From assembly GCA_963971425.1 (NCBI GenBank), contig OZ020517.1, forward strand, positions 11,906,501 to 11,970,500: DNA of 64,000 nucleotides, read 5' to 3'. Below, piece by piece: positions 3,149 to 60,821 of the stretch. This DNA comes from Bryoerythrophyllum caledonicum. Its lineage: Eukaryota > Streptophyta > Bryopsida > Pottiales > Pottiaceae. The stretch's first letter is position 1. Each line of letters begins with the position of its first letter. A model generated the notes under the pieces. It did no database searches. It worked only from the letters and a program-made list of their open reading frames with translations, and was not told the DNA's origin. The position numbers were made by a program, and so were the translations under genes.

Positions 3149-3460
3149 TAGTGGTTCTTGCTTGTTTTGCAACGCATTATAACAACCACTTTAATGAATT
3201 CTCTATATTATTTGATATTAAGAAAAACATTCATTTCAAAATTACTTTTAAAAAACTGGAAGACTAGGGAAGGAGCGGGTTACAAACATTAAGTGTTTCT
3301 TAATAGTGTTCGTGATGATTCTTAACACTTTGCCATAGTCATTCGCGGACGATTTTTCTTCTGCAGATTGTTTTTCGTCCAGAGACTGTTTTCTCAACCA
3401 AGGACTGCTTTTCCATCCTCTGACTATTTTCATCCGCAGTGGATGAAATTGTAATTTGGC
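3149..3460. repeat. Element Y: second copy of the same end, facing the other way
   Basis: Begins TAGTGGTTCTTGCTTG at 3149, a diverged version of the end at 3126, placed back to back with it. Downstream (3340-3450) lies a palindromic version of the same interior motif (CATCCGCAGTGGATGAAA). The right end is not identified. Confidence 0.35.
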
Positions 3461-3839
3461 CACATTATATTAATAGTGGATATCGGCTCTCTAAGTAGGG
3501 TTATATTTAGTAGAAAAAATAAATTGTGTAGGAGGTTTTCCAAAAACCACATTCTTGTGTGTGTTTATAAAGCATTTTAAGGAAGTTCAATGCCTAACTC
3601 CGTAGGTAGATTGCTACGACATATTTACTCGGACATCTAGAACCATAACAATTTAAAGCAATGAAGTATATGCAATCATTAATACAAACATGCATACATT
3701 AAATTCTAGAGGCATTCAAATATGAATAGCAAAAATGCTTATAGGAAGATTTTGTTGTATTCATTGATATTGTATAATGTATTTGGTATACCATTTCGTG
3801 TACTCTATAGAGTAATTTCCACACACTAAAATATCCTTA
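3461..3839. other. Spacer, no gene seen
   Basis: AT-rich. Nothing recognised. Confidence 0.3.
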
Positions 3840-5258
3840 GAGCATAACTTATGGCCATACACAAAACATGACAAATCATCACAACACAGTACAACAACTA
3901 ACCCGCACACATATTCACTGACTGTATCAATGCACTTTATCTACTAAACATCCAAATAACAAACCCTATCCTCTACAATAGCCAGCTCGACCAAACTATT
4001 TTAATGTCGTTGATCCACATGTTACAAAACTGAACACATATAACAATCCTTCACAAAATTCTGCTCAAGCAAATATCGATGGAAACGAACTAGCAAATAA
4101 ACTTGGGAAAGAGGTCTGTAAAAAAACGCATGAAAATGCCAAAGACTTGTACGAACATCCACATGCTACCCCATACCACTTCCAAAAAGTATATTGGCCT
4201 CCTAAAGAGGATACCCCCATTAAGGTTCCGGTGTTATTCTTGAACATCTCAAGAAACAAGACCTCTATAACAACCTTGACACAATCAAATAAAACTTCCA
4301 TAATATAGAATAATGGGTTCGCAACAACAAAATAGACTATGAACTCTCTACGAATTCTTCGAAAAATTCCATCATCCCGAACTCACAAATAACATGTGTC
4401 ATCAAATTCCGTAATAGTCGATATTTGGGAAACGCCCGAAAACAACTCTTATTTCGAATAGAATTCTCATATGTAACATGCCCCATATGCACTTTCTCAG
4501 ACGCCGACAAATCACTCCATGTTCTACCGAAAATGCCAAAACCATCACATACACTCCTTAATTGTCACAAGACATAACAAAGCAGTACGGGAAATTCGAT
4601 AACTATTTACCTCCCATAACAAATCACGATGATTTATCCTCATGAATGCCGGCACCTTTAATAACAAGTTACAACCCACAAGGAAATACGGCCCCCCCTT
4701 GGCTACTCCCGAGTCCCATGTACATGCGCAACATAGCGCTGTCTTTGTAACGCTAGACTCAAAGCCGACATACTTTGCATTCGGGGCCTACCATACAACG
4801 ACTCTGCACCCGACCACATTAACCAAGAGTATACCATTCAATTCATCGAATTCACATATTGTAATGATAGATTCTCCCCGGAAACAATTGAAAACAAAAT
4901 AAATGAATACCAACCCAGCAACCCCTTATTAATGACATCGTTGCCCTCGGATGGAAAATGGACCCGCTTATTGTAATCACTGCCGATGCTCGTGCCACCA
5001 CCTTTATCCCATCTATAAATATCCTTTTGAGATACCTTTAAAATCTCCATCGAAACAATTTCACACACTTTCAATATTATTAACACTGTTGCCATTCAAC
5101 AGGCCATGTCCATTCTACTACACCAACACAAAATGGAAAAGAAACCAAGCCCTCCTTGACAGGGTGTCCGGTGGGCATGGTCTTAGTGATGAAACGAACA
5201 GATTCTTTATTCACGCCGGCCCCTTTGCGGAGCGGCGTTTCTCTTCTTGCTTTAACTT
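3840..5258 (+). mobile_element. Non-LTR retrotransposon (LINE), 3' part with RNase H and endonuclease-like domain, decayed
   Basis: Broken coding blocks in order. First is the end of an RNase H domain (ANIDGNELANKLGKE, about 4060-4115). Next is a cysteine motif TCPICTFSDADKSLHVL near 4475-4525, typical of the zinc-binding region after the reverse transcriptase. Last is a block starting MNAGTF at 4642. The better-preserved copy at 25.5 kb shows that this last block carries a PD...ExK pattern, as in restriction-like endonucleases of LINEs. Several stops and frameshifts interrupt the frame. A short 3' tail follows at 5158-5258. The reverse transcriptase core is missing, so this is a 5'-truncated copy. 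The endonuclease assignment is inference from the motif. Confidence 0.6.
5158..5258 (+). repeat. LINE 3' tail, copy 1 (ends in CTT-rich sequence)
   Basis: Shares CTTTATTCAC and neighbouring blocks with 26228-26325 (+), 18693-18754 (-) and 45156-45223 (-). It directly follows the LINE coding remnant. Copies 3 and 4 end in a clean (CTT)n run, and this one ends TTTCTCTTCTTGC. Confidence 0.6.
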
Positions 5259-5262
5259 CTGG

Positions 5263-5639
5263 GTTAGAAATACTCAAGGAACTTTAGAGGTACAGGTTGT
5301 AAAAAAAAATTATTTAACATGTAATGATATGAAATACTCTTTAACTTTTATGAGGTGAATGAAAAGTTGGAATGTATAAAAATTTCTCATTCCACACATC
5401 CACTTATACTAAAAAATTATCAATAAAATTCATTTGGAAACATGTAGCATGCATTGTACATTCATCATCCACATTGACATGGCCGCAACGTAGAAATATT
5501 TAATAAACATCGATTTGAAGATCTTAAATAATGACCTTCTAAATTTACAAAATAGTCAACATTGTTCTCGCATGAAGACATTATCCACATGGATTACATT
5601 ACACAAAGACCATGTATGATTAATCGGAATCTGAGTCAG
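5263..5639. other. Spacer, no gene seen
   Basis: AT-rich. Nothing recognised. Confidence 0.35.
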
Positions 5640-7165: not shown

Positions 7166-7216
7166 AGATGTTCATTTTTTTGGTGCAAATCGTAGAGTAG
7201 AGAAGAAGATTACATT

Positions 7217-7290
7217 AGGACCAAGCTATTTTGCGTGCCCAATTTTGCGAGCCGCGAGCAGCGAGCCTACCGTTGCGAGCCTTGTGGGTA
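7217..7290 (+). repeat. Left terminal inverted repeat of the 7.4-kb element
   Basis: Starts AGGACCAAGCTATTTTGCG, followed by repeated GCGAGC units. It pairs with 14535-14598. Confidence 0.65.
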
Positions 7291-8800
7291 AATATATTGT
7301 TCTTAATTTGAAAAAGCCCAGAAAAAGTGAAAGTTTAATGGGATTTTTTTTTGTGGGAATGGTTTAGGGTAATAAATTAATGGACCTATTACCATGGGAG
7401 ACAGTGTAGAAATTGAACGCAAGAGGTTGAAAAATTGAAAATTTGGCTAATATTATTCTAAGAATGAACCTATGGCCGTGGATACTTTGCTTTACCAATA
7501 AAGAACAGATAGGATTTCTGAAGACATGCAGCTCTCAAGTGGGGTTCAGTATAGATAAAAGTGTTGTGCAAGAGTGGAGGATAAGGAGGTTGTAGTTAAG
7601 GTTTAGGTTGAGGATTTCCAATATCAAAATTTAGAGTACTCATAGTTAGCATTTAGGGTAGTGCTAACTAGAGCTTGAGACACAACGTTGATTTAGGGTA
7701 AGAGTGAGAGATTAGGCTAGGTGGGATTAGGCGAGAGTTACAGATAACGTTAGATTTACGGTTTAGAAAAAAAGCCCCCACGTCTCATGGGAGTCCAAGA
7801 CGAAGTAGTTCAATTAGGAGATAAACATTTTAAGTTGGTTAAGGGTGATAGATAGAAAACTCGGTGAATTTAAAAGAGCTAGGGAGTTTTAGGAGTTCAG
7901 AGCGACTGCGAGAGAGGATAAAGAGAGAGAATCACGAGCGGTCTTCGGGTTTAGAGAGAGGTTCAATTAGGTTTAGAGTTGACAGTGAAGGCAAATTAGA
8001 AGCGATGGATCACCTCTATCTCCACTTTTTTGCAAGTATAGAATTGGAGATGGACACGATGTAGTACGGGGAATGCTATCTTGCGTGCGGTGAGCGGTGA
8101 GCTGTAAGCTGTAGGCGGTGGTAATAAAAGTATATGGGCATTAACAAGTACAAAAAGTAGAAAGAAGATAAATAAAAGGTACAAGGGGACCTATATCCGT
8201 GTGAAATATGATTACTAAGCTGGAAAATTACAATCCTATTTCCGCAGAAACCATTATAAGACTTTGTAAAAATGGTAAGAATAGAAGCAAGGAATTTTTT
8301 TCAGAATACATATGTAGAATGATGACCGGGAATACCCGCATGATATCCGCAACGAAATGTAGGGTATCGGCGGATATCGCAACCTTCTTAAAAGTGAGTG
8401 GCAAGGACAGCGTATTTTACAAATGATAGTCAATAGATACAACATTGAATGAACAATATTCAAATAAGACAATTGATATGGATCTTGATGAAGTGTTAAA
8501 GAAAAACCAAGAATACTCACTATGAATTTGCAATACTGAATATGAATTCAACTCAGTCCTACTATCAGTTAGATGTAATGCCGTTAACCGCAGTCATGGC
8601 AACAAGGGAGTACATTTGGATATAGTCGGTTTAGGCAAATTAAAATGAATGAAAACAAATTCTTGGAGGACAATGGACATTCTCATGAGGATGAATGCAA
8701 AATAGTGATACTCATAGGTGAAAAAAGAATAAAGAAAACAGTGGATGGTTGTCCATGTGGGAGTAATCCACAAAGAATCATGAAAATGGGAAAATTTACA
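7291..8800. other. Left interior of the 7.4-kb element, no gene recognised
   Basis: Contains scattered TTTAGGG-like words and, at 8068, a further left end (GGGGAATGCTATCTTGCG then GGTGAGC repeats) that closely matches the end at 35275. This suggests an older, truncated insertion. Small open frames exist here, but none shows a known domain. Confidence 0.4.
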
Positions 8801-8804
8801 TGAT

Positions 8805-10440
8805 CTAGGCAAAAGAGTTGCAAGAACTATCCGAAGACGACAATATAACCACAATTTTCTCAACTGCCACTATGTCAAGAAATCCATGAGCACGAAATTC
8901 AGAAGATGAGGAATTCAAAGTTGTTGAAGGAGACACAACATTGGTGAGCAAATCTGCCGCCTCAATAGTATACGAAGGAAGTTGAAAATTACGTTCACGA
9001 GATGAAACCAATGACATCAAGCTACAAAACAATGAGTACGAAGGCATATTAGAGAATCAATTAGAAGAACATATGAATAGAGAATAACGCCAACTTCACT
9101 TACTTACTCAATTGGTTTCTCTTAGTGACCTTCTGGATCGGAGCATCGTCATTGAGGGAGGGGTCCACTGTGGAATTAGGGTCGGCGTTGAACGTGAGCC
9201 TTTGGAGTGAAATGCCGCCTGTAAATGTTGCAAAGCATCAAATACACATTTGTCTTTTTCAAATGCCACGAAATGACGACCGATGGAACGCCAAGCTTGA
9301 ATGGAGTTTCTTTAAAGTAGACTATCAATTACAATGACAACAAAATGCAAATTGGAATTGAATGATGTGAAAAAGCATCGTACTAGCAGAAGCAAATGCA
9401 TCAACAATGACGGCTTGGGGCTTTGTTAACGTGTGAAAGAGCATTGAAAAGGAGAAGACGCTCCGTTCACGGCCAACCCGCCAGGGAACACTCCCCCACA
9501 TAGGCATCGTATCCTTGCCCGTATGATTGACCAAAATGACAGTCTCTTCAACGCTCCAACCAAGAAATGACAACTCTTGAGTGGAATTGAACTAGAATAC
9601 CTCTACTTCATTGGAGACCTGCACAAACAGCAACACACGCGATCGATGCTTCTAAAAATGATCACTGAGTTAGCTAGGAGAACAACAATGACATGAAATA
9701 TGAAATACACTTAGTGAAATGAGGAATGTTGATGAGGATGGCGACAGAGACCGAGGAGGATCCTTTCGCTTCAACATAGGGGCAGTAAGAAGCTCCAAGG
9801 CTGGAGTGACCTCTGCATTGGGTTTGGAGCCGATGCATAAGAAACAGAGGCAATGATAGGATTTGGAGCCGACAACATACCTGAGTCTTCCAAGTGGCTT
9901 TATGAAGCCAATCAGGAAACTCACTGCCGACAAAACGGCCCTTAGAAAATCTTAGAGCCTCACGGAAGGAGCCGCCACGATTCCAACGCTCAAACCACTT
10001 AGATGAGTTACCTTCATCTAAGCCTCCATCGACAAAGTTGCGAGCATATGGAGCTTCTCTTGAGTCATCTCAGCACCTTCTTCATGAGCTTCGTAATGAC
10101 GCTTGACTTCCTCGCAGGATCATGGAGTATTCTTCGGGTTAGTTGACGATAGTCGCTTAGAGAGCTCCGAACTGCAGTGCGACTTTGTTTTATCAGCGGC
10201 CGCCAAAACAAAGTCCATTGCATCTACAGAAGTCTAGTCAGTTGGGTCAAAATACTTCTCCATGACCTTGATTTGCGCCTGAACCGTAGAGTTGCCAATC
10301 TTATGCTACAAAAAATAATAAATAAAAGACCATAAGTATAGCTCTGTCACCTACAGGGAACAGAACGAAGAGCACAATTTATGGTCTTGCCATAAGGCAA
10401 AGTAAATCTGAAAGGGAATACTCCCTCCATCTGTACCTCT
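8805..10440 (-). pseudogene. Broken multi-exon gene with DNA-methylase-like block
   Basis: Read on the minus strand. An upstream block near 10.0-10.3 kb (EKYFDPTD, RHYEAHEE) contains stops. It is followed by a clean exon ending FPDWLHKATWKTQ with a GT donor at about 9881. After an intron ending in TTTGTGCAG comes a block with one TAG. This leads to ELSFLGWSVEETVILVNH and KPQAVIVDAFASAS, then, after a probable intron, GRHFVAFEKDKCVFDAL. The DAFAS motif followed by a GRHFVAFEKD-type strand resembles the DPF(A)G and cofactor region of amino-DNA methylases, with Pro changed to Ala. A possible last exon lies at 8805-9024. The stops mark a pseudogene. The methylase reading is inference. Confidence 0.45.
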
Positions 10441-10499
10441 GCCGCTCACGGCAATCCACATCAAAACATACAAAGGAGGCGATCCCTAGACACTACCAA

Positions 10500-11850
10500 T
10501 AACAACAGTGCTTTTGTGGAAGCAAAAATGCACTGCCGTCAATGGCACTGCCGTTAACGGCAGTGTTTTTCAGGGAGCTCCAAGCTGTAGCACTATCGTC
10601 AATGGTAGTGCTTTTGAGGGAGCAAAAAAACTCCCCAAAAAGCACTGCCGGTAACGACAGTGCTTCAGATTGGAGCTCCCTTAATTGCAATGCCATGAGA
10701 GGCAGTGTCTTTTTGAGAGCAAGATTGCTCCTTCAAAAGCACTGCCATTAACAACAGTGCAGTTAAAGATGCATCACGGCTCTCTCAATAGCACTTCCGT
10801 TAACGCTAGTGCTTCAATATCGAGTTTTTAGCGGAAGCAATGTCGTTAACGGCAGTGCTTTTGAGAGAGCGGATATGCTCCCTTAGAGGCAATGCCGTCT
10901 GCATCAAAGCATTTGAGGGAGTGACAATGCTCCCAAAAATGCAGTGCCGTTAACGGCAGATCTTTTGACAGAGCATTTTTGCTCCCTCAAATGCACTACT
11001 GCTGATGGCAGTGCTTAAGATGTGCATTTCCACATGTAGGATTGCCGTTAGCGGGAGTGCATTTTTGGGAGCGCCAATGCTTCCAAAAAGACATTGCCGT
11101 TAACGGCAGTGCATTTGAGGGAGTGACAGTCCTCCCAAAAAGGCATTGCCGTTAACGGCAGTGCATTTGAGGGAGTGACAAAGCTCCCAAAAAGGCACTG
11201 CCGTTAGCGGCAGTGCTTTTTTGGGAGCTTTTTTGCTCCTTCAAATGCACTGCCGGTGACAGCAATGCTTTTGGTGTGAATTTCTACTTGTAGCACTGCC
11301 GCCAACGCCAATACTCTTGGGCACTTGAAGCTCACCTCCTCCCAAAAGACTGCCGCTAACGGGAGTGCTCTTGGGCAACGGCTTGAAGCTCTCATTAGAG
11401 CTTTGCCGTAGGCGGCAGTGCTCTTAAGGGAGCTCTCATGCTCATCTTCATTGTACGATGGAGTATACTCGAGAGCTTGTTGCAGGGAATTGTCGTCGGT
11501 GGCACTGCTTAACAGTTCCTTCGTCAATTCAGAATATGGGCAGGTTGGTGGGGAGTGCCTTTGGCAGCACTCCTTTGGAGCAGCTCTTAAGCTCGCTCCA
11601 AAACCGTGCCCACATTGGAAATTAGTTTACACGAATTCCAAAATGGTGTGGCATGTTAGATATGGAGCTTGGAGAAGAGTTGTACGCATGGTTGAAGGAT
11701 TGCCACCTAAAACTTCATCCGCTCATAACTTTCAAATCCTTGATCCGATTGTAAAGTGCCATACCATTTTAGAAATGGCATCAAATTTCCAATCTTGAAC
11801 AGTTGCTTCTAGGGGCATGCCGTTAACGGCAGTCCTTTTGGAGGGGCTGC
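10500..11850. repeat. Array of about 20 palindromic units, 50-52-bp spacing
   Basis: Core palindrome CACTGCCGTTAACGGCAGTG (perfect at 10546-10565) recurs in intact or mutated form about 20 times. Most copies are flanked by TTTTGAGGGAGC on one side and GCTCCC-like sequence on the other, so each unit can form a hairpin of 40 bases or more. Units starting near 11092, 11144 and 11196 are exactly 52 bp apart. Spacing is 45-55 bp elsewhere, with one outlying unit near 11817. Because the motif is palindromic, both strands give similar short open frames; I do not treat these as genes. The array lies inside the 7.4-kb Mutator-like element between its two genes. Confidence 0.85.
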
Positions 11851-13260
11851 AAGAACCTCCAAGGCAATTTCCAAAAGGATGACGTCAACAATAATCTTGG
11901 GAGTGGTGCAAAAGTTCAAAAGCATTCCTTCATGTTGTTGAGCATTCTCTAAATATTTCAAAAGGTTTTGGCTTATATGCACCTTCTACAAGAGGGTTGT
12001 ACCAAAATTTGTGTCTTGTGTAGTCTCATTGAATGATTTGAAAGTTCTATAGTTTTAAATTTTTTTTAAGATTATTTTCAAAGTTGATATCTACGTATAC
12101 CACTTAAATAGAGTTATCATTGTCAGCATTGTTTGTGAATATATTCATTGTATACTCTGGCCACATTATTAAGATATTCCTAGATTCTGAGTGTATAGTA
12201 TAATTTTCCATTTGAGCTCTGTAAAGAGCATGCTAAGTGTTGCAACATATTGTGTTGAAAGGGTGATTACAAGAATAATTTTTATATCTAAGCTGTACTA
12301 ACACTTAATATACTAGTTTGTGTGAGCTCATAATGCATCTTTATAAGAGTGCATGGTGATTGAAAAATCTTGGAACAATAAGTTTCTCTTCTTGATTCGT
12401 AATGTTGGTGGGAAAAATGAAAAGTAGTGAAATCATTTCATGATTCCCACAAATGTCCATGTTTTTCATATACTTCTTTGATATCTAATGAAGAGGGGCG
12501 CATATGGTGCGTGAACAACTTCTCACCTAAATATTAAATACTGTAATCCCTGTTATACAATGAAAACAAGGAATTTGTAAGCATCTATATTACTACAAAC
12601 ATAGAAGCAACATGCAAACATTTAGACGTAAAATCCCATTTAGAGATGACTTACTTTTTTAGGAAATTAAATTTCAGCTAATGCCTCATTTCTTGGAGCA
12701 AATAAATTATTACCAACAAATGTTTTGCCTCATTGACTACATATGTACTACACTTTTCTCTCTCTATAGTGTAGACCATACAAATTTTGAAATATCTACA
12801 CAAATTGAAAATGTACATCCAATTGTTGATTTGCACACACTTGCTTGAGATTGAATACCCAATCAAAACTTGACATGCATGTGCTTCATGTAAAGTAGTA
12901 TAGATGGATCTACATCAATAATGAATTTACACTAGATAGAGTGAATGGTGTAGTATGCCTTTGTTCCATTTACAGAAAACAATGGTTACATGTCCATAGC
13001 TTCTATTGCTGCAGCTTTGTTGCACACCATGGTACATGTTTTGACAAAATTTTGACTCCCAAACAATTTTTTCTAATAATAAAACCACGATCATAGGTGT
13101 CTATATTTTACTTTTTTATAATCAAATCATTTAACAATAAGAACTAACTTTCACTCCCATTGTCTATTTTTGGGTAGTCACACTATGGAGGTGGCCCTTT
13201 TAGTCTCACCGCCTTTTCAATGGAAGGAGTGACTTAGTACAAGGTTTTTCTAGTGGGAAC
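11851..13260. other. AT-rich interior of the 7.4-kb element, no gene seen
   Basis: No domain, RNA gene or repeat end recognised. Confidence 0.35.
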
Positions 13261-13265
13261 AGCAA

Positions 13266-14075
13266 CTATGCACCGTAGAACTTAAGGAGCAGAATTTGAA
13301 GAATTCGCTTGATCTCATTCCAGCTGAAACTAGGTGCGTGAATAAACACATCCACCTCCAAATCTAAACCACAGACAATGGTGAATACGTAATACATGTG
13401 CTTACAGTAAGTCCATGAACCGCGTTTGCCGAGTGATCTTTTGGACATCTCTGTAAAAGATAGGCAGTCGCAGCTTGGAAACAGGCCGATTGTTACAAAA
13501 TACGGTGAAACTGTGGAAATGTTCCGAGACTCTAGAGTGACAATGCAAGCGAGGGCAGGAGGCTGAACCATCAGAATTGCGCAGAGTTTTCCCACAACAG
13601 AGAGAGCAGAAGCGCAGCAGTTATGGTGTCGAGTAGTTGGAGCAGCTCCGTTCCTTCGAATGTTTTTCTCATATCGCTTGGTTGGATGCTCTGCAGGGTT
13701 AGGAGGAGCGAGGTAATCGTTCAAGTTCACAGAGACACCTTCACCAAATAACTTTCGAGGAGATAAAACCTCACGCTCATGAAGACGGAACCCGACATTT
13801 TCAAAGGCAAGTATCTCCGTTCTGCTAAGGTTAGTACCCATTTGAACATGCCAGAACTCGGGGGGAGGTGGCATACTTTTAACCCATTTGCGGCGTGTAT
13901 CCATGACACAACGATGAATGCCGTCGTTGCAAAAGAAGAATCGATGTCTCTCCAACCTAGTCTTCCTGTAATTGTCCATAAGACCAATGTACCTGTAGGG
14001 GCAGCTGTGGGTCAATTGTTGCGCACAATCGTGGCAATACACTTCTGCTTTGTACCGACTTGTAGAGCAAAACAT
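13266..14075 (-). CDS. SWIM-type zinc-finger protein, transposon-borne
   Basis: An open frame of 269 codons. Near residues 202-227 it holds CDC, 19 residues, then CKH, which is the CxCx(n)CxH pattern of SWIM zinc fingers. After it comes YVFTIVCGLD and an Asp/Ser-rich helix. SWIM domains are DNA- or protein-binding modules common in Mutator-type transposases. The N-terminal third has several Cys/His (CHDCAQQ, FFFCNDGIHRC) and may be another metal site. No DDE core is visible. Upstream coding-like sequence (14012-14260) is in another frame, so the start is uncertain and the gene may be 5'-damaged. It shares orientation with the methylase-like pseudogene in the same element. Confidence 0.55.
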   Translation of the reverse strand: MFCSTSRYKAEVYCHDCAQQLTHSCPYRYIGLMDNYRKTRLERHRFFFCNDGIHRCVMDTRRKWVKSMPPPPEFWHVQMGTNLSRTEILAFENVGFRLHEREVLSPRKLFGEGVSVNLNDYLAPPNPAEHPTKRYEKNIRRNGAAPTTRHHNCCASALSVVGKLCAILMVQPPALACIVTLESRNISTVSPYFVTIGLFPSCDCLSFTEMSKRSLGKRGSWTYCKHMYYVFTIVCGLDLEVDVFIHAPSFSWNEIKRILQILLLKFYGA

Positions 14076-14100
14076 TTCTCAGCAGATGTCTTGGGAAGCC

Positions 14101-14220
14101 TTGCAATATGCCATTCATTCTCATCACACACTGTCACTTGTACAACTTTCACGTGTGGAATTGCAATATGCCATTCATTCTCATCACACACCAAAATCTG
14201 TAGACTTTTACTCGGTTTGA
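14101..14220 (-). repeat. 60-bp tandem duplication upstream of the SWIM frame
   Basis: TTGCAATATGCCATTCATTC plus the next ten bases recurs exactly at 14101 and 14161. On the minus strand it encodes VCDENEWHIA twice. Confidence 0.7.
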
Positions 14221-14534
14221 ATTTACCACAGTCCATCCAAATCAACGGTCCACACCCCACGGCCTTAGGGTACCTAAAATATTGTTGTTGTAAAGGTCAC
14301 CTCCATTTCAATTATTATTTTGGACTTCGTTCATATTCAGGCCAGCTATTGACGAATTTCCACGGCTATAGGGCCCTCCCCTTTTCTCTTTGACTTTTAT
14401 CTTTATTTTTTTGTCCTTTTTTTCATTTTTTTCCAAAAAAATTTTCCCTGCATTTTTTCTTACTTTTCGAACACTTTATCTATGCTCTGTTACTTTTACT
14501 TTATCTCTAAAAATTAACAACATTTTTAATTTTA

Positions 14535-14598
14535 CGCTCGCAAACCTAGGCTCGCAACTCGCAGCTCGCAAAATTAGGCACGCAAAATAGCAATCCCC
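14535..14598 (-). repeat. Right terminal inverted repeat of the 7.4-kb element
   Basis: Its reverse complement starts GGGGATTGCTATTTTGCG and matches the left end at 7217. It is followed by the 9-bp duplication GATTACATT at 14599-14607. Confidence 0.65.
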
Positions 14599-14775
14599 GA
14601 TTACATTGTAGATTTTTGGTATAGTATGATATCAAAGACTCCAGCTCCGTTGTGCTACCTTGTGCTCTAAGAAATCTATGATGTTGCAATAAATTCAACT
14701 GTATCTTCTTTGCAGTGTATTGCCTTTGTTGAATGAAAAGTCATGTAGTTAAAATACATTCTTACGGATAGTGTA

Positions 14776-20415: not shown

Positions 20416-20579
20416 CCCTGGCACGCAGCCAGTTCCAGTATCCAACACCAACAACTCGTCCTCGAAGTTTCAGTACGAGATTCACTCTCCAACTACTAGT
20501 TTCTCTCTCCAACGTCTACATAGATCGATCTTGAGCTACACTCATTTTCACTCTGCAGCCCAAATTAGTTGAGACCAAG

Positions 20580-21239
20580 ATGTTGGTTCGTTCCAACATG
20601 TGGGCGGCGGTGGCGGTGCTGCTGGTCGTGGGGCTGGTGCCCATGATCGCCATGGCAGCGGACGAGGACCCGCTCCAGGACTTCTGCGTGCGCGACGCGG
20701 CCTCGCAGCAGACCATCAACGGCTTCCCCTGCAAGCCCGCAGCGCAGGTGTCCGTTCACGACTTCAAGTTCGAGGGTCTCAAGAACCCGGGCAACACCAA
20801 CAACCCCAACAAGGCCAGCGTGACCGCCGCGTCGGTGATCCAGTTCCCGGGGCTCAACACGCTGGGCATCTCCGCGGTGCGTATCGACTTCGCCAAGGGC
20901 GGCATCAACCCGCCCCACACGCACCCGCGCGCCACGGAGCTGCTCATCCTGGTGAAGGGGGAGCTGTACGTCGGGTTCGTGAGCACGGCGAATGTGCTGT
21001 TCGCCACCACTATCTACCCGGGCGAGGCGTTCGTGTTCCCGAAGGGCCTCGTGCACTTCCAGCTCAACGTGGGGAAGGGGCCGGCGCTGGCGTTCGCGGG
21101 GCTGAGCAGCCAGAACCCCGGAGTGCAGACGATCGCGCCCGCGCTGTTCACGCCTGACATCAAGGACGAGGTGCTGGAGAAGGCATTCCGCATCGACACC
21201 AAGACCGTGGACATGATCCAGAAGCAGTTCCGCATGTGA
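20580..21239 (+). CDS. Germin-like protein 1 (secreted cupin)
   Basis: 219 codons, no intron. Residues 1-27 are a signal peptide with a hydrophobic core (AAVAVLLVVGLVPMIAMA), so secretion to the apoplast or cell wall is expected. Cys at DFC and GFPC fits the conserved N-terminal disulfide. Germin box 1 is GGINPPHTHPRATE (His, His, Glu metal ligands) and box 2 is FPKGLVHFQLN (fourth ligand His). Germins form manganese-binding hexamers; oxalate oxidase or superoxide dismutase activity varies between members and cannot be told from sequence. Start chosen at the first ATG, followed by the signal peptide. The codons are strongly GC-biased against the AT-rich surroundings. Its protein is identical to that of the gene at 29143. 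Confidence 0.95.
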   Translation: MLVRSNMWAAVAVLLVVGLVPMIAMAADEDPLQDFCVRDAASQQTINGFPCKPAAQVSVHDFKFEGLKNPGNTNNPNKASVTAASVIQFPGLNTLGISAVRIDFAKGGINPPHTHPRATELLILVKGELYVGFVSTANVLFATTIYPGEAFVFPKGLVHFQLNVGKGPALAFAGLSSQNPGVQTIAPALFTPDIKDEVLEKAFRIDTKTVDMIQKQFRM

Positions 21240-28973: not shown

Positions 28974-29142
28974 CCCTGGCACGCAGCCAGTTCCAGTATC
29001 CAACACCAACAACTCGTCCTCGACGTTTCAGTACGAGAGCCACTCTCCTACTACAAGTTTCTCTCTCCAACTAGTTCGATCCTGAGCTACCACCTCTCGA
29101 GCTTGGATTTTCACTCTGCAGCCCAAATTAGTTGAGACCAAG

Positions 29143-29802
29143 ATGTTGGTTCGTTCCAACATGTGGGCGGCGGTGGCGGTGCTGCTGGTCGTGGGGCTGG
29201 TGCCCATGATCGCCATGGCAGCGGACGAGGACCCGCTCCAGGACTTCTGCGTGCGCGACGCGGCCTCGCAGCAGACCATCAACGGCTTCCCCTGCAAGCC
29301 CGCAGCGCAGGTGTCCGTTCACGACTTCAAGTTCGAGGGTCTCAAGAACCCGGGCAACACCAACAACCCCAACAAGGCCAGCGTGACCGCCGCGTCGGTG
29401 ATCCAGTTCCCGGGGCTCAACACGCTGGGCATCTCCGCGGTCCGTATCGACTTCGCCAAGGGCGGCATCAACCCGCCGCACACGCACCCGCGCGCCACGG
29501 AGCTGCTCATCCTGGTGAAGGGGGAGCTGTACGTCGGGTTCGTGAGCACGGCGAATGTGCTGTTCGCCACCACTATCTACCCGGGCGAGGCGTTCGTGTT
29601 CCCGAAGGGCCTCGTGCACTTCCAGCTCAACGTGGGGAAGGGGCCGGCGCTGGCGTTCGCGGGGCTGAGCAGCCAGAACCCCGGAGTGCAGACGATAGCG
29701 CCCGCGCTGTTCACGCCTGACATCAAGGACGAGGTGCTGGAGAAGGCATTCCGCATCGACACCAAGACCGTGGACATGATCCAGAAGCAGTTCCGCATGT
29801 AA
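29143..29802 (+). CDS. Germin-like protein 2 (secreted cupin), identical protein to gene 1
   Basis: 219 codons, no intron, with the same signal peptide, disulfide cysteines, and box 1 (HTHPRATE) and box 2 (GLVHFQLN) metal ligands as the gene at 20580. By eye the coding sequences differ at only three sites, all synonymous (GTG/GTC, CCC/CCG, ATC/ATA), plus the stop (TGA versus TAA). The 5' leader differs more, including a longer stretch just before the ATG. The promoter with TATA box is conserved, so both genes are probably transcribed. Recent gene conversion or strong constraint on GC-rich codons could explain the contrast. Confidence 0.95.
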   Translation: MLVRSNMWAAVAVLLVVGLVPMIAMAADEDPLQDFCVRDAASQQTINGFPCKPAAQVSVHDFKFEGLKNPGNTNNPNKASVTAASVIQFPGLNTLGISAVRIDFAKGGINPPHTHPRATELLILVKGELYVGFVSTANVLFATTIYPGEAFVFPKGLVHFQLNVGKGPALAFAGLSSQNPGVQTIAPALFTPDIKDEVLEKAFRIDTKTVDMIQKQFRM

Positions 29803-33167: not shown

Positions 33168-33818
33168 TTACTTGCGGAACTGCTTCTGGATAAAGTCCAC
33201 GATCTTGGTGTCGATGCGGAATGCCTTCTCCAGCACCTCGTCCTTGATGTCAGGGATGAACAGCGCGGGCGCGATCTGCTGCACTCCGGGGTTCTGGCTG
33301 CTCAGCCCCGCGAACGCCAGCGCCGGCTCCTTCCCCACGTTGAGCTGGAAGTGCACGAGGGCCTTCGGGAACACGAACGCCTCGCCCGCGTAGATCTTGG
33401 TGGCGAACAGCGCATTCGTTGTGTCCACGAACCCGACGTACAGCTCCCCCTTCACCAGGATGAGCAGCTCCGTGGCGCGCGGGTGCGTGTGCGGCGGGTT
33501 GATGCCGCCCTTGGCAAAGTCGATGCGCACCGCGGAGATGCCCAGCGTGTTGAGCCCCGGCAACTGGATCACCGTCGCGGCGGTCACGTTGGACTTGTTG
33601 GGGTTGTCGGTGTTGCCCGCGTTCTTCAGCACGTCGGTCTTGAAGTCTTCGACGGAGACCTTGGCTGCAGGCTTGCAGGTGAAGCCGTTGATGGTGACCG
33701 CGGAGGCATTGTCGCGCACGCAGAAGTCCTGGAGCGGGTCCTCGTCCGCTGCCGTGGCGATCATGGGCGCCAGGAGCAGCACCGCCAGCGTCGCCCACAT
33801 TGCGGCGTTGCTCACCAT
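33168..33818 (-). CDS. Germin-like protein 3 (secreted cupin)
   Basis: 216 codons from the ATG at 33816-33818; the open frame extends upstream only through a non-ATG codon. A signal peptide (MWATLAVLLLAPMIATA) is followed by DPLQDFC and GFTCKPA disulfide cysteines. Box 1 HTHPRATE and box 2 ALVHFQLN carry the usual metal ligands. Likely N-glycosylation sites lie at NKS and NVT, which the other two proteins lack. Most of the second half is near-identical in DNA to genes 1 and 2, while residues 40-75 differ, so it is an older paralogue. It lies inverted relative to the pair, intronless and GC-rich. Confidence 0.94.
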   Translation of the reverse strand: MVSNAAMWATLAVLLLAPMIATAADEDPLQDFCVRDNASAVTINGFTCKPAAKVSVEDFKTDVLKNAGNTDNPNKSNVTAATVIQLPGLNTLGISAVRIDFAKGGINPPHTHPRATELLILVKGELYVGFVDTTNALFATKIYAGEAFVFPKALVHFQLNVGKEPALAFAGLSSQNPGVQQIAPALFIPDIKDEVLEKAFRIDTKIVDFIQKQFRK

Positions 33819-33922
33819 GATGAATCTAGTAACTTGCAGAAGAAAGGGCAATGTGGAAGATGTGTCTATGCAGGTGGAGGAGCTTGTGAGACTGGTTGTG
33901 TTGGATGTTCACGTTGTGACGG

Positions 33923-36086: not shown

Positions 36087-37037
36087 CAATAGGGTGACAT
36101 TCAAATTGGCGTTTGGGCAATTCCAGGGATGGTGTCCCACACTGCTGCCAACTTTGATGCCCTCCACAGGGCTGAAAAATTGTTCTTTTACCCTGAAATT
36201 TTGGGAACAGCATCACCTCTATGTTAAAAACATGCATACCAAATTTCAAGTCCAGAGGACTTTTAAAACAAAAGATATTAAAAATTAACCACCATGGGGT
36301 AGCTGTGAGAAAAGTTTCTCAACCGCCAACTTTGACACCATCCCAAGGATTGAGGAATTTTTTTTTGCCCATGGAATTTTTGGAGTGAGAACACCTTTAT
36401 GTTGATTACATGTGTGGAAATTTTCAAGTCCAAAAAATGCACAAAAAAAATCACATCCCAAATCTACCAACAAGTGTAATTGTGAGAAAAAAAGGGAAAA
36501 ACCATTTTACTACTTCCAACTTTGACACCCTCCCTAGGATTGAGGGTTTGTTATTTCAACATGAAATTTTTGACACATGGTAACCTTTATGTTGATAACA
36601 TGTGGGAAAATTTTCAAGGCCAAAAAATGTATTCAAAAGAAGATATTCAAAATCTACTAACATGGGGGTTAGTTGTGAGAAAAGTTTCACAGCTGCCCAC
36701 TTTGACACCCTCCCAAGAATTCAAAAAAATTTATTTGTCCATGAAATTTTGGGTATGAAGTCACCTTCACGTCAAATACAAGTGTGGAAAATTTCAAAAT
36801 CCAAAAGATTTACACAAAAAAACATATACCAAGTCTACCAACATGTATTGTTGTGACAAACAAAGGGGAAAGTTTACCACTACTTCCAACTTCAACACCC
36901 TTCCTAGGATTGAGTTTTTGTTGATACATAATGAAATTTTGGCCACAAGATCATCTCTATATTGGTAACATGTGAGATAGATTTCAAAGCTAAAAGATGT
37001 ATATACAAAAAAAAATTATTCCATATCTACCAACGTG
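36087..37037 (+). repeat. Left inverted repeat of the Tc1-like transposon
   Basis: Tandem, diverged units of about 180 bp. Pairs with 38817-39766. Confidence 0.85.
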
Positions 37038-38034
37038 TATGTCCTCCATTAGCATCAATCACCGCTTGTAACCTTGAGGGCATAGAATGACCTAGTTGAA
37101 GGAGCTTTGTATCACTAACCAAATTCCACTCTTTTTCAAGAACTACCTTCATCACTTTTAAGTTTCTAGGGCATTCCTTGCCATGTTGCACAACATCTTT
37201 TAGCATCCTCCAGACATTCTCGATTGGATTGAGATCGGGAAAGTTTGCAGGCCAATCGAGCTTTTCGAGTTGGTGGGTTTGTCTCCATTCTTCACATGTT
37301 TTGCTACGATGAACAGGTGCACCATCTTCCATTAGCACTCCTTCTAGAAGTCTACTCAAGAAATGAATCAGTTCGCCATCGTAGACCACTTCAACAAAAT
37401 CTTTAGCAAAACGTTGAGTTTTTGGCATAAAGACAAGTTGTGACTTTTGTCCTCCAGCAAATGCACCCCAAATCATCAAAGATGTCCGTCCACTTTTAAA
37501 AGTAGGAACTATACAACTTGATGAATAACGCTCATATGCACTTCTCCAAACATGAATTTGCCGAGAACTTTTTCCAATCTCAAAAGTAGATTCATCTGTC
37601 CAAACAATACGCTCCCACTCTTCTGGACTCCATCCATGGTACTTCTGAGCAAAAGCTAACCGTTGAGACATGTGATGGAATGTCAAAAAAGGTTTTTTGA
37701 CTGCAATTCGACTAAAAATACCACTTTTATGTAATACCCTTTGAATAGTACGTCTACACACTTGAGTACGGCACATATTAGTAATCTCTGAGAGCGAGGA
37801 ACGACGATGAGTTTTTGCATAACGCACAATATTATTCACATCTCTCTCACTAAGTTTTTTAGCGTGACTTCCACCGCAAGGTTTGCGCTTATAAGTTCCA
37901 TCTTCTTTAAACGTTTTTAGTAACCTCTGAACTGTTCTAACAGAAACTCCAGTAATGGCTGCAATTTGAACTCCTGTATTTCCTCCCTCACTCAAACCTA
38001 TAATGCGAGCACGGATTTCATCTGAAATTGCCAT
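37027..38034 (-). CDS. Tc1-family transposase, DD34E, apparently intact
   Basis: 335 codons from ATG (38032-38034) to TAG (37027-37029), a normal length for the family. The N terminus has two helix-turn-helix domains: TGVSVRTVQRLLKTF in the first, and a second around RRTIQRVLHKSG. They bind the inverted repeats. The catalytic triad is in VWTDEST, LMEDGAPVH and PDLNPIEN; the spacing from the second Asp to the Glu is 34 residues (DD34E). A basic stretch KRKPCGGSHAKK lies between the two halves. The stop overlaps the inner edge of the left repeat arm. No frameshift or nonsense mutation is seen. It would cut and paste the element at TA sites, and could also move the related foldback elements. Confidence 0.92.
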   Translation of the reverse strand: MAISDEIRARIIGLSEGGNTGVQIAAITGVSVRTVQRLLKTFKEDGTYKRKPCGGSHAKKLSERDVNNIVRYAKTHRRSSLSEITNMCRTQVCRRTIQRVLHKSGIFSRIAVKKPFLTFHHMSQRLAFAQKYHGWSPEEWERIVWTDESTFEIGKSSRQIHVWRSAYERYSSSCIVPTFKSGRTSLMIWGAFAGGQKSQLVFMPKTQRFAKDFVEVVYDGELIHFLSRLLEGVLMEDGAPVHRSKTCEEWRQTHQLEKLDWPANFPDLNPIENVWRMLKDVVQHGKECPRNLKVMKVVLEKEWNLVSDTKLLQLGHSMPSRLQAVIDANGGHTRW

Positions 38035-38194
38035 TATAGACTATTTTTTATGATGTTGATACAATACTAAATGCTCTTCAATAAGTAATCAATATAACAC
38101 TCAACCTATGGCAATTGGATTATATAATTCAGTAAACACAAAGGAATCAGTTTATGGCATGTGCACTAAATAAATCAATCAACAACATAACACT

Positions 38195-53830: not shown

Positions 53831-53989
53831 TTACAATTTGGCTCTACAAAGAGATTCTGCAATGGAGAGAAGTGAATAATGGACAGTATTATGGATCTGT
53901 AAGAGTCCTCCAAGTTTGTCTTCATCCACAAAAATAAATTCTTGAGCTAGTCCAAGGATAAAGTTTTTGTTCTTAAGATATTTGTGGAT

Positions 53990-55000
53990 TGGCCTAGGAG
54001 TAATGTAGACCTTGTTAGGCATATACGACCCAGGAATGACCTCAAGATTGTTGGTTGATGTTTGATCATGTCAAGCATATTAAGGGCAAGACTACTATGG
54101 TATGTCACGTGTATGATAGTAAATATTGTAAAGTCATCACAATTGCCATGTGCAATATGCAACTGGAGGATGCTCTAGTGCAGGAGCTATTCTGGAAAAA
54201 CCTGAATGGAATCATGAAGAACCATGGAATATAGGAGACAAACTTCAAAGGCTTCATGGCTGACAATGCTAGAGAAAACTGGCAGGCCGTACATCCCGTT
54301 TATGGATACAACGACAAGGACAAGTCCATGGATAATAGAGAAGGAGCATGCTTATTCCATTGGACTAAGTGTCTATAGCAAGCCGCCACAAGAAACATTC
54401 TTCTCAACTTTCAATAGTAGCACATTGCCCTCTAGAAGATCTAAAAAATGCGAAGACACAAGAAGAGACAAAAGCGCAATACAACGTAATTTGAGCATGG
54501 TGGATGCCCTCCGGTGCTACTACTTAAATTGGGCGTCGTGCTCTAGAAGACTCGATGGCACTTTGGCACTTCCCTTTGGCCAAGGATTTGCTGACCATAA
54601 CAGACAACCTAGAGGGTGCAAAGAATTTTGGATCCACGAGGGGGGAGCTTGACATGCCACCCGGGTACAGCCACGATATCCACTGATCCGATATGGTAAA
54701 CTATTCTATTTCCCCTGATGGCAGAAAGGTGACTCGGGCGCGTATCAAAGAGGTCCTTAGTGGATAAAACTCTAGAGTCCAACACACAATATCCGTGTTG
54801 GAATCAAACTGCAATCCATCCAAATAGCACATTGCTCCCTTCCCGAAGAAGTCCGCTCGAAAATGCCAAGCATTGCAAGCTCACAGTAGTAAGCAATGCA
54901 ACACCAAAGTTGGATGTGGAAGTCATGAAATCCAACCACTACATTTACTGGTATGAAGAACAATTATAAATTGTCAGAGAATGTTGTTGTTGAATTCTTA
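53990..55000 (+). pseudogene. Mutator-type transposase remnant
   Basis: One frame reads VCHVYDSKYCKVITIAMCN, a stop, then FKGFMADNARENWQAV and ACLFHWTKCL. The Asp block followed by a CxxHW motif is the pattern of the Mutator DDE domain. A later block at about 54.58-54.66 kb (EGAKNFGSTRGELDMPPGY) lies in another frame. Stops and frameshifts abound. It is the only Mutator-type catalytic remnant in the window and fits the surrounding element ends at 35275 and 57997. Confidence 0.5.
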
Positions 55001-55567
55001 TTTTGTCCCAATGATATTGATCGCTTTGTGGAGGGGGCAAAGAAATTGTTTGTGGTAGATTGGCTAGCAGTTCCAATGATGGGCCTGTCAAACTTGGCAC
55101 TAATTTGATAGTGCAAGGGGTATTAGTGCAGGAGGAAGCAGGTTTCTAGTTGCAACAACGTGGAGCTCTTTCACCGCAAAGACAATTCCAAGTGTCTATG
55201 GAGATACAGTAATTGACAAAATCCGATCAAACATTGGGTACTCACAACTTCGATTGTCATTATTTGCAAATTGACAAGTGGCATGCTCTAGTTCAAAGGG
55301 TGATCACCTTCTATTTCAAGCTGAGATTCTTTAAAAACTAACTGTACAAATGGGAATGCATTTGTGTGGACAAATGGATGGCTGCTTGTCATCTCTCTCA
55401 TTTGATCACTATTGGCGACCTATAAAATGCAAAAGCTTATAAATAGATGTGCACAAATTTGTGAGAGATCTTCCACTAGCACTTGTATAACTTTGATTTT
55501 TCTAGTCTGTAATAGTCGTGTGCATAATTATTGCTACTGCATAGGCTTTCTTCTTTAGTGTTTCAAG

Positions 55568-56590
55568 ATGTCCAAAGCATTATCTCGACAGACTCAAGAT
55601 AACGTAGTTTTGATGCTCCGGAGAGGATGTTCACACAAGGAGATAGCAAATACTTTGCATATGAGTGTAGGAAGTGTCCATAACCTTTGTCGAGGATATG
55701 TTTCCGATGTAAACCGTTTGTGTAGAGATAGACCTCAAAAGTTGAATAGACCACAAGAACAAAGGTGTGTGTTAGAAATGGTGAAGGGAAGAATGGGTAC
55801 TTGTGTAGATGTAGCAAGGTCTACACAACAAGTATTGGGAATGATAGTGAGCTCTCATACTATCAAGCGTGCACTTCATAGAATTTGTTTACGTTTGCAA
55901 ACAAAGGTAAAAAAAACCACATCTTTCTTTCACAAATGTGACGGCACGTTTAGAGTTTGCTAGAGTCCACAAACACTAGACTGTAGAGGATTGGAGTCGA
56001 GTAATCTTCTGAGACGAGAGTAAAATCAACTGCTTCAATTGAGACATAAGGGTTTGGAGTTGAGCACGAGAGGCGATGCCGCTTTCAGAACAAACTATCA
56101 ATCAAACAGTTAAACATAGAGGTGGGAGGATTGTAGTTTGGAGTGTATAAATGTCCATGGACGAGGATTGATATGCAAAGTAGAGGGGCACATTAATCAA
56201 ATTTGTTATTATGACATTCTAGAAGAAAATGTCCACATGGTAATTTCCAAGTTCAACTTAGACCCTTCTTGTGTCATCTTCCAAGAAGACAATGCTCCTA
56301 TTCAGACAACAAAGATGCTTCAAGAGTGGTTCTCATGGAAACCTTTTACTCTTCTACCTTGGCTTGCTCAATTGCTTGATTTGAATTCCATTGAACACCT
56401 TCGGTTAATTCCCAAACAGCGACTCAATTGATATGAGAGACCTACAACTGGAAAAATAGAATAGTGAGATCGTGTGGTAGAAGTTTTCCACTCTGCTACT
56501 CCAGATGATTGTAGGAGGCTTGTAGAAAGTATGCCACATAGGATTGCAACTGTAAAAGCAACAAAAGGGAGGTGGACAAAGTATTGAGAC
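55568..56590 (+). pseudogene. Second Tc1-like transposase, broken
   Basis: The N-terminal 131 codons are open and carry helix-turn-helix sequence (GCSHKEIANTLHMSVGSVHN). Then a frameshift leads to SRVIF, a stop, and DESKINC (first catalytic Asp). Further on are VIFQEDNAPIQ (second Asp) and LLDLNSIEHL (third region). At least two in-frame stops and frameshifts occur. The sequence is clearly a different lineage from the intact transposase at 37 kb. Confidence 0.8.
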
Positions 56591-56599
56591 ATCATCTTT

Positions 56600-57950
56600 C
56601 ATGGGTTGGCAAAACTGATTAAATGCCTAGGCGGACTTTGGATTATTCTTGGTCTTTTCAGAGCTCTAATTTGAAGGCATTTTTCCTCAAATATGTACTA
56701 TATATATTGCATAGTATGTCAATAGAATTTCAAGTTCCAATTTCATGTATTAATTTTTTGTCCAGAAGAATTAAATGAAGTGTTTGCACGTGTTTGATCG
56801 GATTTGACAATCACTATACCTCTTCCGCATTTGCATTTCCATATTCTAGCAAATTCAAAAAAAATCCACACCTTCCAAAATAACTACATGATTTGCATAA
56901 CGACATATATTTTCACTATTGAGCAATGCAATAAGTGATCAAGCGTTGCTCTTATGAATAACTGCTACGTCTCTAACTTCTTTGCCATACCATACCCATG
57001 TTGGAGATGTGTTATCACTATTTGTACGGGGAAGAACAAGTCTTATTGCAACAGATCATACCCGGGGTGTCTGTGCCCTAATATCTAAAAGATGCAATTG
57101 GAGGCATTGGAGAAGAAGGGGTAGTGGAAGTATTGCAAGCAGGTGTACTACATCTTACAATACTTAAGTAAGATTGACTACAAAGAGGACTTACTCATGT
57201 ATGCTCCAAGCTACAGCTTCAACAAAGTCAAGCCCATTCTCAAGCTTGCCAACATCGCCAAAGAAGCGCGAGAAAGGCAATGAAGTCGTAGTTCTCATAA
57301 ATATCTATGTTTCTAAATTGCTCATGTGTAGTGTCATAGGATACACTTTGAATCACTGTTGGATTTCATGACTGTAATTAATAGTCATGAATTTTGTTAA
57401 TACATCTAATGATAATTTTGTACCTAATTCAATATGAAGTCTATTAAACATTTTGGAAAATTTTAATAGATTTGTGTAGGTGATACGCATGTCATGCTCA
57501 AGTGATATATGTGTAATACATGGGCAATATCCATGTAAATCTAAGGTGATGTCTATTTAATACCTACTCAATACATAGGTGTAACCATTGTGTCCAAATC
57601 ACTTGGATTTTAAAAATAAGTTATTTTGGCAAGTTATGTTTGGTAGTGAGCACTTTGTGCAATTTTTTAGCACAACGTTGTCATTTGCATATCAATAAAT
57701 CTTCCTTTTCTCTAGATATGCCCCCCTATAAATGTAGAAAGCTTAGAAAACAAAAATTAGACTTAGATTATAACCCAAGCCAGGAAGAGAAGAAGGTCCA
57801 AAAGAAAAAGTATAGTACAAGTGTCTACAATTACAAGCTTATTTCTTAATTTAGTATGTTTCCAAAAAATGTCTCCGAAATTTGTAGTTCTACCCAAATT
57901 GCCTACAATTTCACATTTTTCCGAAAAAACACAACATTTTTTCCATTTTT
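56600..57950. other. No gene confirmed
   Basis: Short open frames (for example 56982-57167, Arg-rich) have no recognised domain. They may be further remains of the Mutator-like gene. Confidence 0.25.
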
Positions 57951-60665: not shown

Positions 60666-60684
60666 TCAATTTTTGCAGAGGTCG

Positions 60685-60720
60685 ATGGCTACGGAAGAAG
60701 GCGGAGTGCGTTCGTTTTGA
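60685..60720 (+). other. Upstream open frame 2 of the E1 leader
   Basis: Encodes MATEEGGVRSF, ending in TGA 102 bases before the proposed main start. Confidence 0.3.
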
Positions 60721-60821
60721 CCATTTCTGGTGCAGGAATTGAAGTGGAAGTCGAGGAGGGTCACGGAGGATCGGGTCATGAGGGAGAGGAGCAAGTGAGG
60801 GGAGGAGGCGAGAGGTTGAGG

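Follow-up and report, generated by a model that had tools for sequence, protein, structure and literature searches.

The window analysed here is a stretch of 64,000 nucleotides from the moss Bryoerythrophyllum caledonicum (contig OZ020517.1, positions 11,906,501 to 11,970,500). Near its left side lies a Mutator-like insertion that holds remnants of a transposase-like gene with a SWIM motif (gene 1), fragments of a gene related to amino-DNA methyltransferases (gene 2) and an array of the near-palindrome TGCCG-N4-CGGCA. A sequence-only reading had described an insertion with GC-rich inverted ends and a 9-bp duplication, which proved to be real and repeated in the genome. The inverted arms (7225-7280 and 14536-14591) are 56 nt long and 88% complementary, and GATTACATT is perfectly preserved on both sides, with one further occurrence in the window at 5592. 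When the genome (437 Mb) was searched with the left end, 332 first-look candidates were obtained, and all 40 of those that were scored matched. Terminal inverted repeats were paired in 7/7 copies read to both ends, the right end of the other 14 of 21 copies being unread. Among these seven end pairs, the duplicated 10 bp agree at 10/10 positions in four (L009, E19, E27 and E28) and at 9/10 in two, L010 and the window element (GATTACATTA/GATTACATTG), while the end pair of E21 sits within a CAA repeat and its duplication is therefore uninformative. Considering that other copies show duplications of 10 bp, the 9-mer of the window most likely reflects a duplication of 10 bp in which one base has changed. 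This length fits the range of 8-11 bp of Mutator-like elements.

To compare the window element with its relatives, 10 kb was fetched at each of the best 20 other left-end places in the genome. The whole structure of 7.4-8.0 kb was found in two of them (L009 and L010), with 96-97% identity outside the array; within part of the array, identity is about 90%. In both, the ends pair at about 8.0 kb; the sequence-only reading had allowed for the case that they never pair at this distance elsewhere. In the other 18 places, the SWIM region follows closely behind the same left end, and segment 8068-13173 has no match, with matches lying wholly within the array (element positions 3270-4230) excluded from the comparison. 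A second end-like sequence was found at position 8068 of the window, and four relatives (L015-L018) are uninterrupted across this site. This end-like sequence and the uninterrupted site show that the segment is a separate insertion. The structure is thus made of two elements, one inside the other, and is not the single element with captured cargo that had been described. For the inner-type end, 149 candidates were found in the genome and 40 of them were scored; apart from the composite copies, of which there are three, almost the full 120 bases are matched at three further places (88-92% identity), and ends of this type flank both sides of a separate element, L038. No inverted copy of the inner end was found when it was sought near 12600-13300, and since its right end has no recognisable repeat, the inner element is probably truncated. 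The outer part belongs to a large Mutator-like family and has lost internal sequence. The window insertion is best explained as a dead composite, in which a truncated relative was inserted into an internally deleted Mutator-like element and both then moved together. Two short contigs, C841 and C846, share one copy together with its left flank, as seen from a comparison of the first 10 kb, and are probably alternative haplotypes or an assembly duplicate.

Four relatives read from end to end (E19, E21, E27 and E28; 12.8-16.1 kb) carry two divergent genes. Gene 1 runs leftward and has two main open stretches, about 720 and 490 residues long, where two aspartates are spaced as D-66-D, a CxxH motif comes next, a glutamate follows about 133 residues past the second D and the SWIM motif lies near the C-terminus. 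At the 12 of 18 aligned loci that could be scored without gaps, the two aspartates and the cysteine are each kept in 12/12 and the histidine in 11/12; the glutamate is kept in 16/16, and each residue of the SWIM CxC...CxH motif in 19/19 scorable loci. In this scoring the DDE positions were assigned by eye, and L020, which duplicates L019, was counted. The SWIM frame of the window (13266-14078) is open, as the sequence-only reading had it. Its 270 residues correspond to the C-terminus of the family's gene 1, so the frame is a remnant of the family's own transposase-like gene and not cargo. The same reading had seen no DDE core; this is right for the window, where that part is deleted, but the longer relatives have the residues.

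Gene 2 runs rightward and comprises seven or more coding stretches, labelled a, b, c, d, f, g and h; there may be an eighth (i), which is under weaker constraint. The methylase-like fragments of the window, including DAFAS (9388-9402) and GRHFVAFEKD (9252-9281), both on the minus strand, match exons c, g and h of this conserved gene. The methylase-like gene of the window was therefore not captured by this copy but is a broken version of the second gene found repeatedly in the family. The relationship to methylases itself is supported through profile matches of the relatives. The C-terminal part of gene 2 was compared with the Pfam profile PF01555 for four aligned members, two of which matched: E27 with an E-value of 7.4e-6 and 26.5 bits, just below the cut-off of 26.7, and E19 with 1.7e-4 and 22 bits. 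It also matched a PHROG family of phage DNA methyltransferases (E 9.5e-6), and among PDB matches up to E 10, 5/5 were amino-DNA methylases (DpnA, RsrI and CcrM; best E 0.011), which we take to be of the beta class. Just outside the composite of L010, at 8740-9999 of its reverse complement, lies a further gene 2 fragment, which comprises exons d and f and has 42-56% identity to E19.

The catalytic motif IV of amino-DNA methyltransferases has the consensus [DNS]PP[YFW]. In 27/27 gene 2 copies, the aromatic residue is lacking and an acid stands in its place, as DLKD, DVKD, DIPD or DIPE, while the first D is kept in all 27. These copies are related, some closely, and 26 were found via likeness to E19. 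They comprise six earlier ones, L039 (DIPE) and 20 further copies spread over the identity range of the 150 scored (16 DLKD, 2 DVKD and 2 DIPD), where 18 were caught by a pattern tally and L056 and L059 were read by eye. In an alignment with four phage relatives, motif IV is D[LPI]PY in 4/4 of these and DLKD in the transposon protein, and the GSG of motif I, likewise present in 4/4, is replaced by SVG or STG. The N-terminal exon of gene 2 contains an invariant DGNHR, which recalls ParB-like domains. However, no Pfam, PHROG or NCBIfam match and no ParB-like PDB match was found for it, and a structure model of this exon had a predicted local distance difference test score (pLDDT) of 40, too poor for fold comparison. 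As DGNHR is the only resemblance and has no profile support, a ParB-like label is not claimed. Exon a of E27 includes 200 masked bases.

Both genes were also sought across the genome. First-look candidates numbered 3411 for the SWIM region, 1834 for exon c and 1576 for exon f, from which the best 142, the best 150 and 150 were scored, respectively. Among the best 142 SWIM matches, exon c lies upstream on the opposite strand within 25 kb in 94, on the wrong side in none and on the same strand in 6. The ratios of nonsynonymous to synonymous substitution rates (dN/dS) relative to E19 were 0.10-0.17 for gene 1, 0.02-0.22 for exons a-h of gene 2 and 0.47-0.52 for stretch i; gapped alignments were excluded, dS exceeded 1, near saturation, in several exon comparisons, and one T2 value for E27 (0.39, 76 codons) was set aside as coming from a fragment outside the element. 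These ratios show purifying selection on both genes. For gene 2, this selection and the uniform replacement of motif IV together suggest that the protein has taken on a new function and has not simply decayed. Identity among five copies is 99.3-99.9% across about 5.9 kb, and the family has therefore moved recently.

The palindromic array noticed from the sequence was confirmed by counting. With at most one half-site mismatch, the window element has 16 sites (15 of them within 10440-11831) and the remaining 56.6 kb of the window has 2, and five elements (64.6 kb) have 59 against 2 in 79.4 kb outside. When all 5-mer inverted repeats with gaps of 0-10 were counted without bias, TGCCG-N4-CGGCA came first. 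Exact sites number 146, in 26 distinct flank contexts, in 18/20 element sequences (209.8 kb), and 0 in 83.1 kb outside; the 20 sequences leave out L020 and include 13 ten-kb stretches that were counted as inside with their right ends unread. The sites sit centrally, in the intergenic DNA that separates the two divergent genes, and also in introns of gene 1 and of gene 2. Genome-wide, 4180 exact sites were counted as opposed to 164 for a control pattern read backwards; places are known for the first 100, and DNA outside the elements was sampled through these and the 83 kb. Of the first seven clusters on contig C1, which were picked by the palindrome alone and grouped by eye, three are copies already in the gene lists. 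Three of the other four were fetched, the one at 2.619 Mb not being among them, and in 3/3 both genes are represented by diverged pieces, with an identity of 34-83% depending on the piece. Their sites lie in gene 2 intron b-c and, in 2/3, also in the gene 1 intron, and their spacers and units differ while the half-site is the same, as an exact search requires. This test shows that the palindrome sites fall in this transposon family, and the palindromes accompany the two genes across the family. A near-palindrome, TGCCGATATCGGAA, also lies inside the coding sequence of gene 1 (at about 2385 in L019 and at the corresponding place in many copies), where the residues read by eye are FRYRQW.

Dense arrays in the non-coding parts of the elements, rare outside them in the sampled DNA, resemble the sites of VANC, the anti-silencing protein of VANDAL elements. 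Because of this similar placement, we propose that the gene 2 protein reads the palindrome and counters silencing. The family would move by a DDE-type transposase, for which we infer gene 1, with SWIM at its C-terminus. Gene 2 would encode a large second protein ending in a beta-class amino-methyltransferase-like domain, in which the PP-aromatic of motif IV is swapped for an acidic motif and which presumably no longer methylates. This protein, probably as a dimer, would read TGCCG-N4-CGGCA in the central intergenic region and in the introns of both genes, and the site arrays would load it and keep both element promoters open, as VANC does for VANDAL. We give a probability of roughly 0.55 to this whole explanation, in which a methyltransferase-derived gene 2 protein binds the palindrome arrays and acts against silencing in the manner of VANC. 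Here we infer that the palindrome is bound at all, that it is bound by the product of gene 2 and not of gene 1, and that silencing is affected. The broader evolutionary view, in which a phage-type DNA methyltransferase turned into a non-catalytic, palindrome-reading anti-silencing protein that co-evolves with its site arrays as an independently evolved counterpart of VANC, is more tentative, and we would not give it even odds.

Several results weigh against the proposed role of the two genes. Gene 1 matched no Pfam profile, neither MULE nor SWIM, and the structure model of its core had a pLDDT of 33, too poor for a fold search. The MULE label thus rests on the ends, the duplication length and the motif spacing. 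For gene 2, the methyltransferase link comes mainly from the motif I half and stays just below the Pfam cut-off. The fragments in the window match no Pfam profile, so the prospect raised by the sequence-only reading, that the methylase-like segment might give no profile hit, came true for the window but not for the relatives. Exon f was not found in the window copy, leaving its motif IV unreadable. In addition, 48 of the best 142 SWIM matches have no exon c partner among the best 150, which may reflect that the lists were limited to the best 142 and 150. The exact palindrome is absent from L015 and L017 within the 10 kb read, and a second, 22.7-kb family member in the window has no TGCCG palindrome, nor does any palindrome except AT repeats stand out in it.

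The transposase, not the gene 2 protein, could also be what binds the palindromes. They would then be enhancer-like or assembly sites for the transposase, with gene 2 as an accessory transposition factor of the MURB type that has no link to silencing. The sites do occur in the same elements as gene 1, even in its intron, and the two genes are paired with their relative orientation fixed. However, the sites are central and intronic and not beside the ends, where transposase sites are expected, and we regard this explanation as unlikely. It is quite improbable that no protein partner exists and that slippage and hitch-hiking spread the palindromes as a by-product of minisatellites. Although most sites stand in tandem arrays with lineage-specific units, the half-site stays constant while unit, spacing, spacer and location vary, single sites recur in introns, the contexts include 26 distinct ones, and diverged subfamilies retain the half-site. 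Slightly less probable again is that gene 2 encodes a DNA methyltransferase that still works despite changes in its active site and would mark the element by protective or epigenetic methylation at the palindromes. The motif I half, the purifying selection and the first D of motif IV (27/27) would be in keeping with an active enzyme, whereas the replacement of the PP-aromatic in 27/27 copies and of the GSG of the phage relatives by SVG or STG speaks against it. Finally, that one element captured a methylase gene and a SWIM gene, as first supposed, is scarcely credible, for although both lie within one end pair in the window, L009 and L010, both match parts of genes that recur in the family itself, there are uninterrupted sites as well as inner-type ends that occur independently, and the two-gene relatives contradict it.

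Table 1. Positions of the features of the nested insertion and of the second family member in the window.
Feature	Position	Strand	Remarks
Left target-site duplication, GATTACATT	7208-7216		10th base A, unlike right copy
Left terminal inverted repeat, outer element	7218-7280	+	Inverted-arm pair and genome matches
Left flank of outer element; adjoins 3' end of gene 1 in relatives, taken as non-coding	7281-8067		Partly aligned in 18/18 longer relatives
GTAGTAC, left copy of presumed inner-insertion duplication	8061-8067		Uninterrupted site in L015-L018
Inner insertion, related subfamily member	8068-13173		Right end without recognisable inverted repeat
Inner-type terminal repeat (GGGGAATGCTATCTTGCGTGC...)	8068-8120	+	Same type at both ends of L038 element
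Broken gene 2, exon h relative (GRHFVAFEKD)	9114-9308	-	E 3e-4
Broken gene 2, exon g relative; motif I half (VPWRVGRER...IVDAFAS)	9346-9657	-	E 1e-11
Broken gene 2, exon c relative	9872-10191	-	tblastn E 4e-13 and 1e-13; internal stops
Near-palindrome array, TGCCG-N4-CGGCA	10440-11831		Mostly 52-bp spacing
GTAGTC, right copy of presumed inner-insertion duplication	13174-13179		
Gene 1 C-terminal remnant with SWIM motif, DDE part missing	13269-14161	-	Matches gene 1 of relatives
Right terminal inverted repeat, outer element	14536-14598	-	Inverted-arm pair
Right target-site duplication, GATTACATT	14599-14607		
Second, degenerate family member, 22.7 kb	35276-57996		Inner-type ends; 10-11 bp duplication, one mismatch
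Degenerate gene 1 of second element	53876-57247	+	E 2e-49, 3e-20, 5e-13

The second element of the window (Table 1) presumably also holds a Tc1-type open reading frame (ORF) and Ty3-type fragments, as judged by reading. An uninterrupted ORF of 337 residues lies at 37027-38040 on the minus strand, and we take it to be a Tc1-type transposase; Tc1-like elements of plants are the subject of PMC4054914. Elsewhere in the window, two near-identical ORFs and a third related one (20535-21239 and 29086-29802 on the plus strand and 33168-33908 on the minus strand) form a local gene cluster, presumably of germin-like proteins. A long ORF in a GC-rich stretch (60666-62234, plus strand) is presumably the first exon of a ubiquitin-activating enzyme. 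Rfam and tRNA scans of the window gave no matches.

Among the papers listed in searches of the open-licence literature of PubMed Central, none reports this gene pair from a DNA transposon and none describes a matching family, in keeping with the suggestion of the sequence-only reading that this may be a little-described plant lineage. A survey of Mutator-like elements (PMC6446971) describes terminal inverted repeats, duplications of 8-11 bp, a SWIM motif in many groups and extra ORFs in some, and the present family shares the repeats, the duplication length and an extra ORF with these elements and has a putative SWIM motif. The main text of that survey contains no mention of methyltransferase, ParB, moss or Physcomitrella, and the available part of its table has no such second gene. 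Transposons that recruited DNA methyltransferases are also known in another class: PMC5890265 reports DIRS retrotransposons with Dam-like methylases and charophyte and dinoflagellate retrotransposons with DNA methyltransferases. In contrast with these, the present family is a DNA transposon, its domain is beta-class-like and the catalytic motif is replaced. The phage DNA methyltransferases (Orisa03, KPhi1, phiNP and BT-TP2) have motif IV followed by motif I, as gene 2 does, and are 22-25% identical to E27, but they keep D[LPI]PY and GSG while the transposon protein does not.

The escape of transposons from host silencing is a long-standing question, for which VANC is a known example. VANDAL elements, on which VANC acts, are presumably Mutator-like. 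They are listed as a Mutator group in PMC6446971, and according to PMC5735166, Arabidopsis VANC binds YAGTATTAY arrays in the non-coding parts of VANDAL elements and induces loss of methylation. For VANA21 these arrays lie in upstream regions, whereas for VANB21 and VANC21 they are intronic. The likeness to the moss family extends to an extra gene beside the transposase, a short motif dense in non-coding parts, both upstream and in introns, and arrays that vary by subfamily. By contrast, the motif is here a 14-bp interrupted palindrome instead of the directional YAGTATTAY, and the second protein appears to be derived from a methyltransferase. With its large, recently active membership, a recurrent methyltransferase-derived partner and a sharply defined candidate site, TGCCG-N4-CGGCA, the family offers a direct test of whether a DNA methyltransferase gave rise to anti-silencing a second time, and it bears on what a methyltransferase fold does after its catalytic motif has been replaced. 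If the proposal is true, the counterpart of VANC in this family would have been built from the same kind of enzyme that it counteracts.

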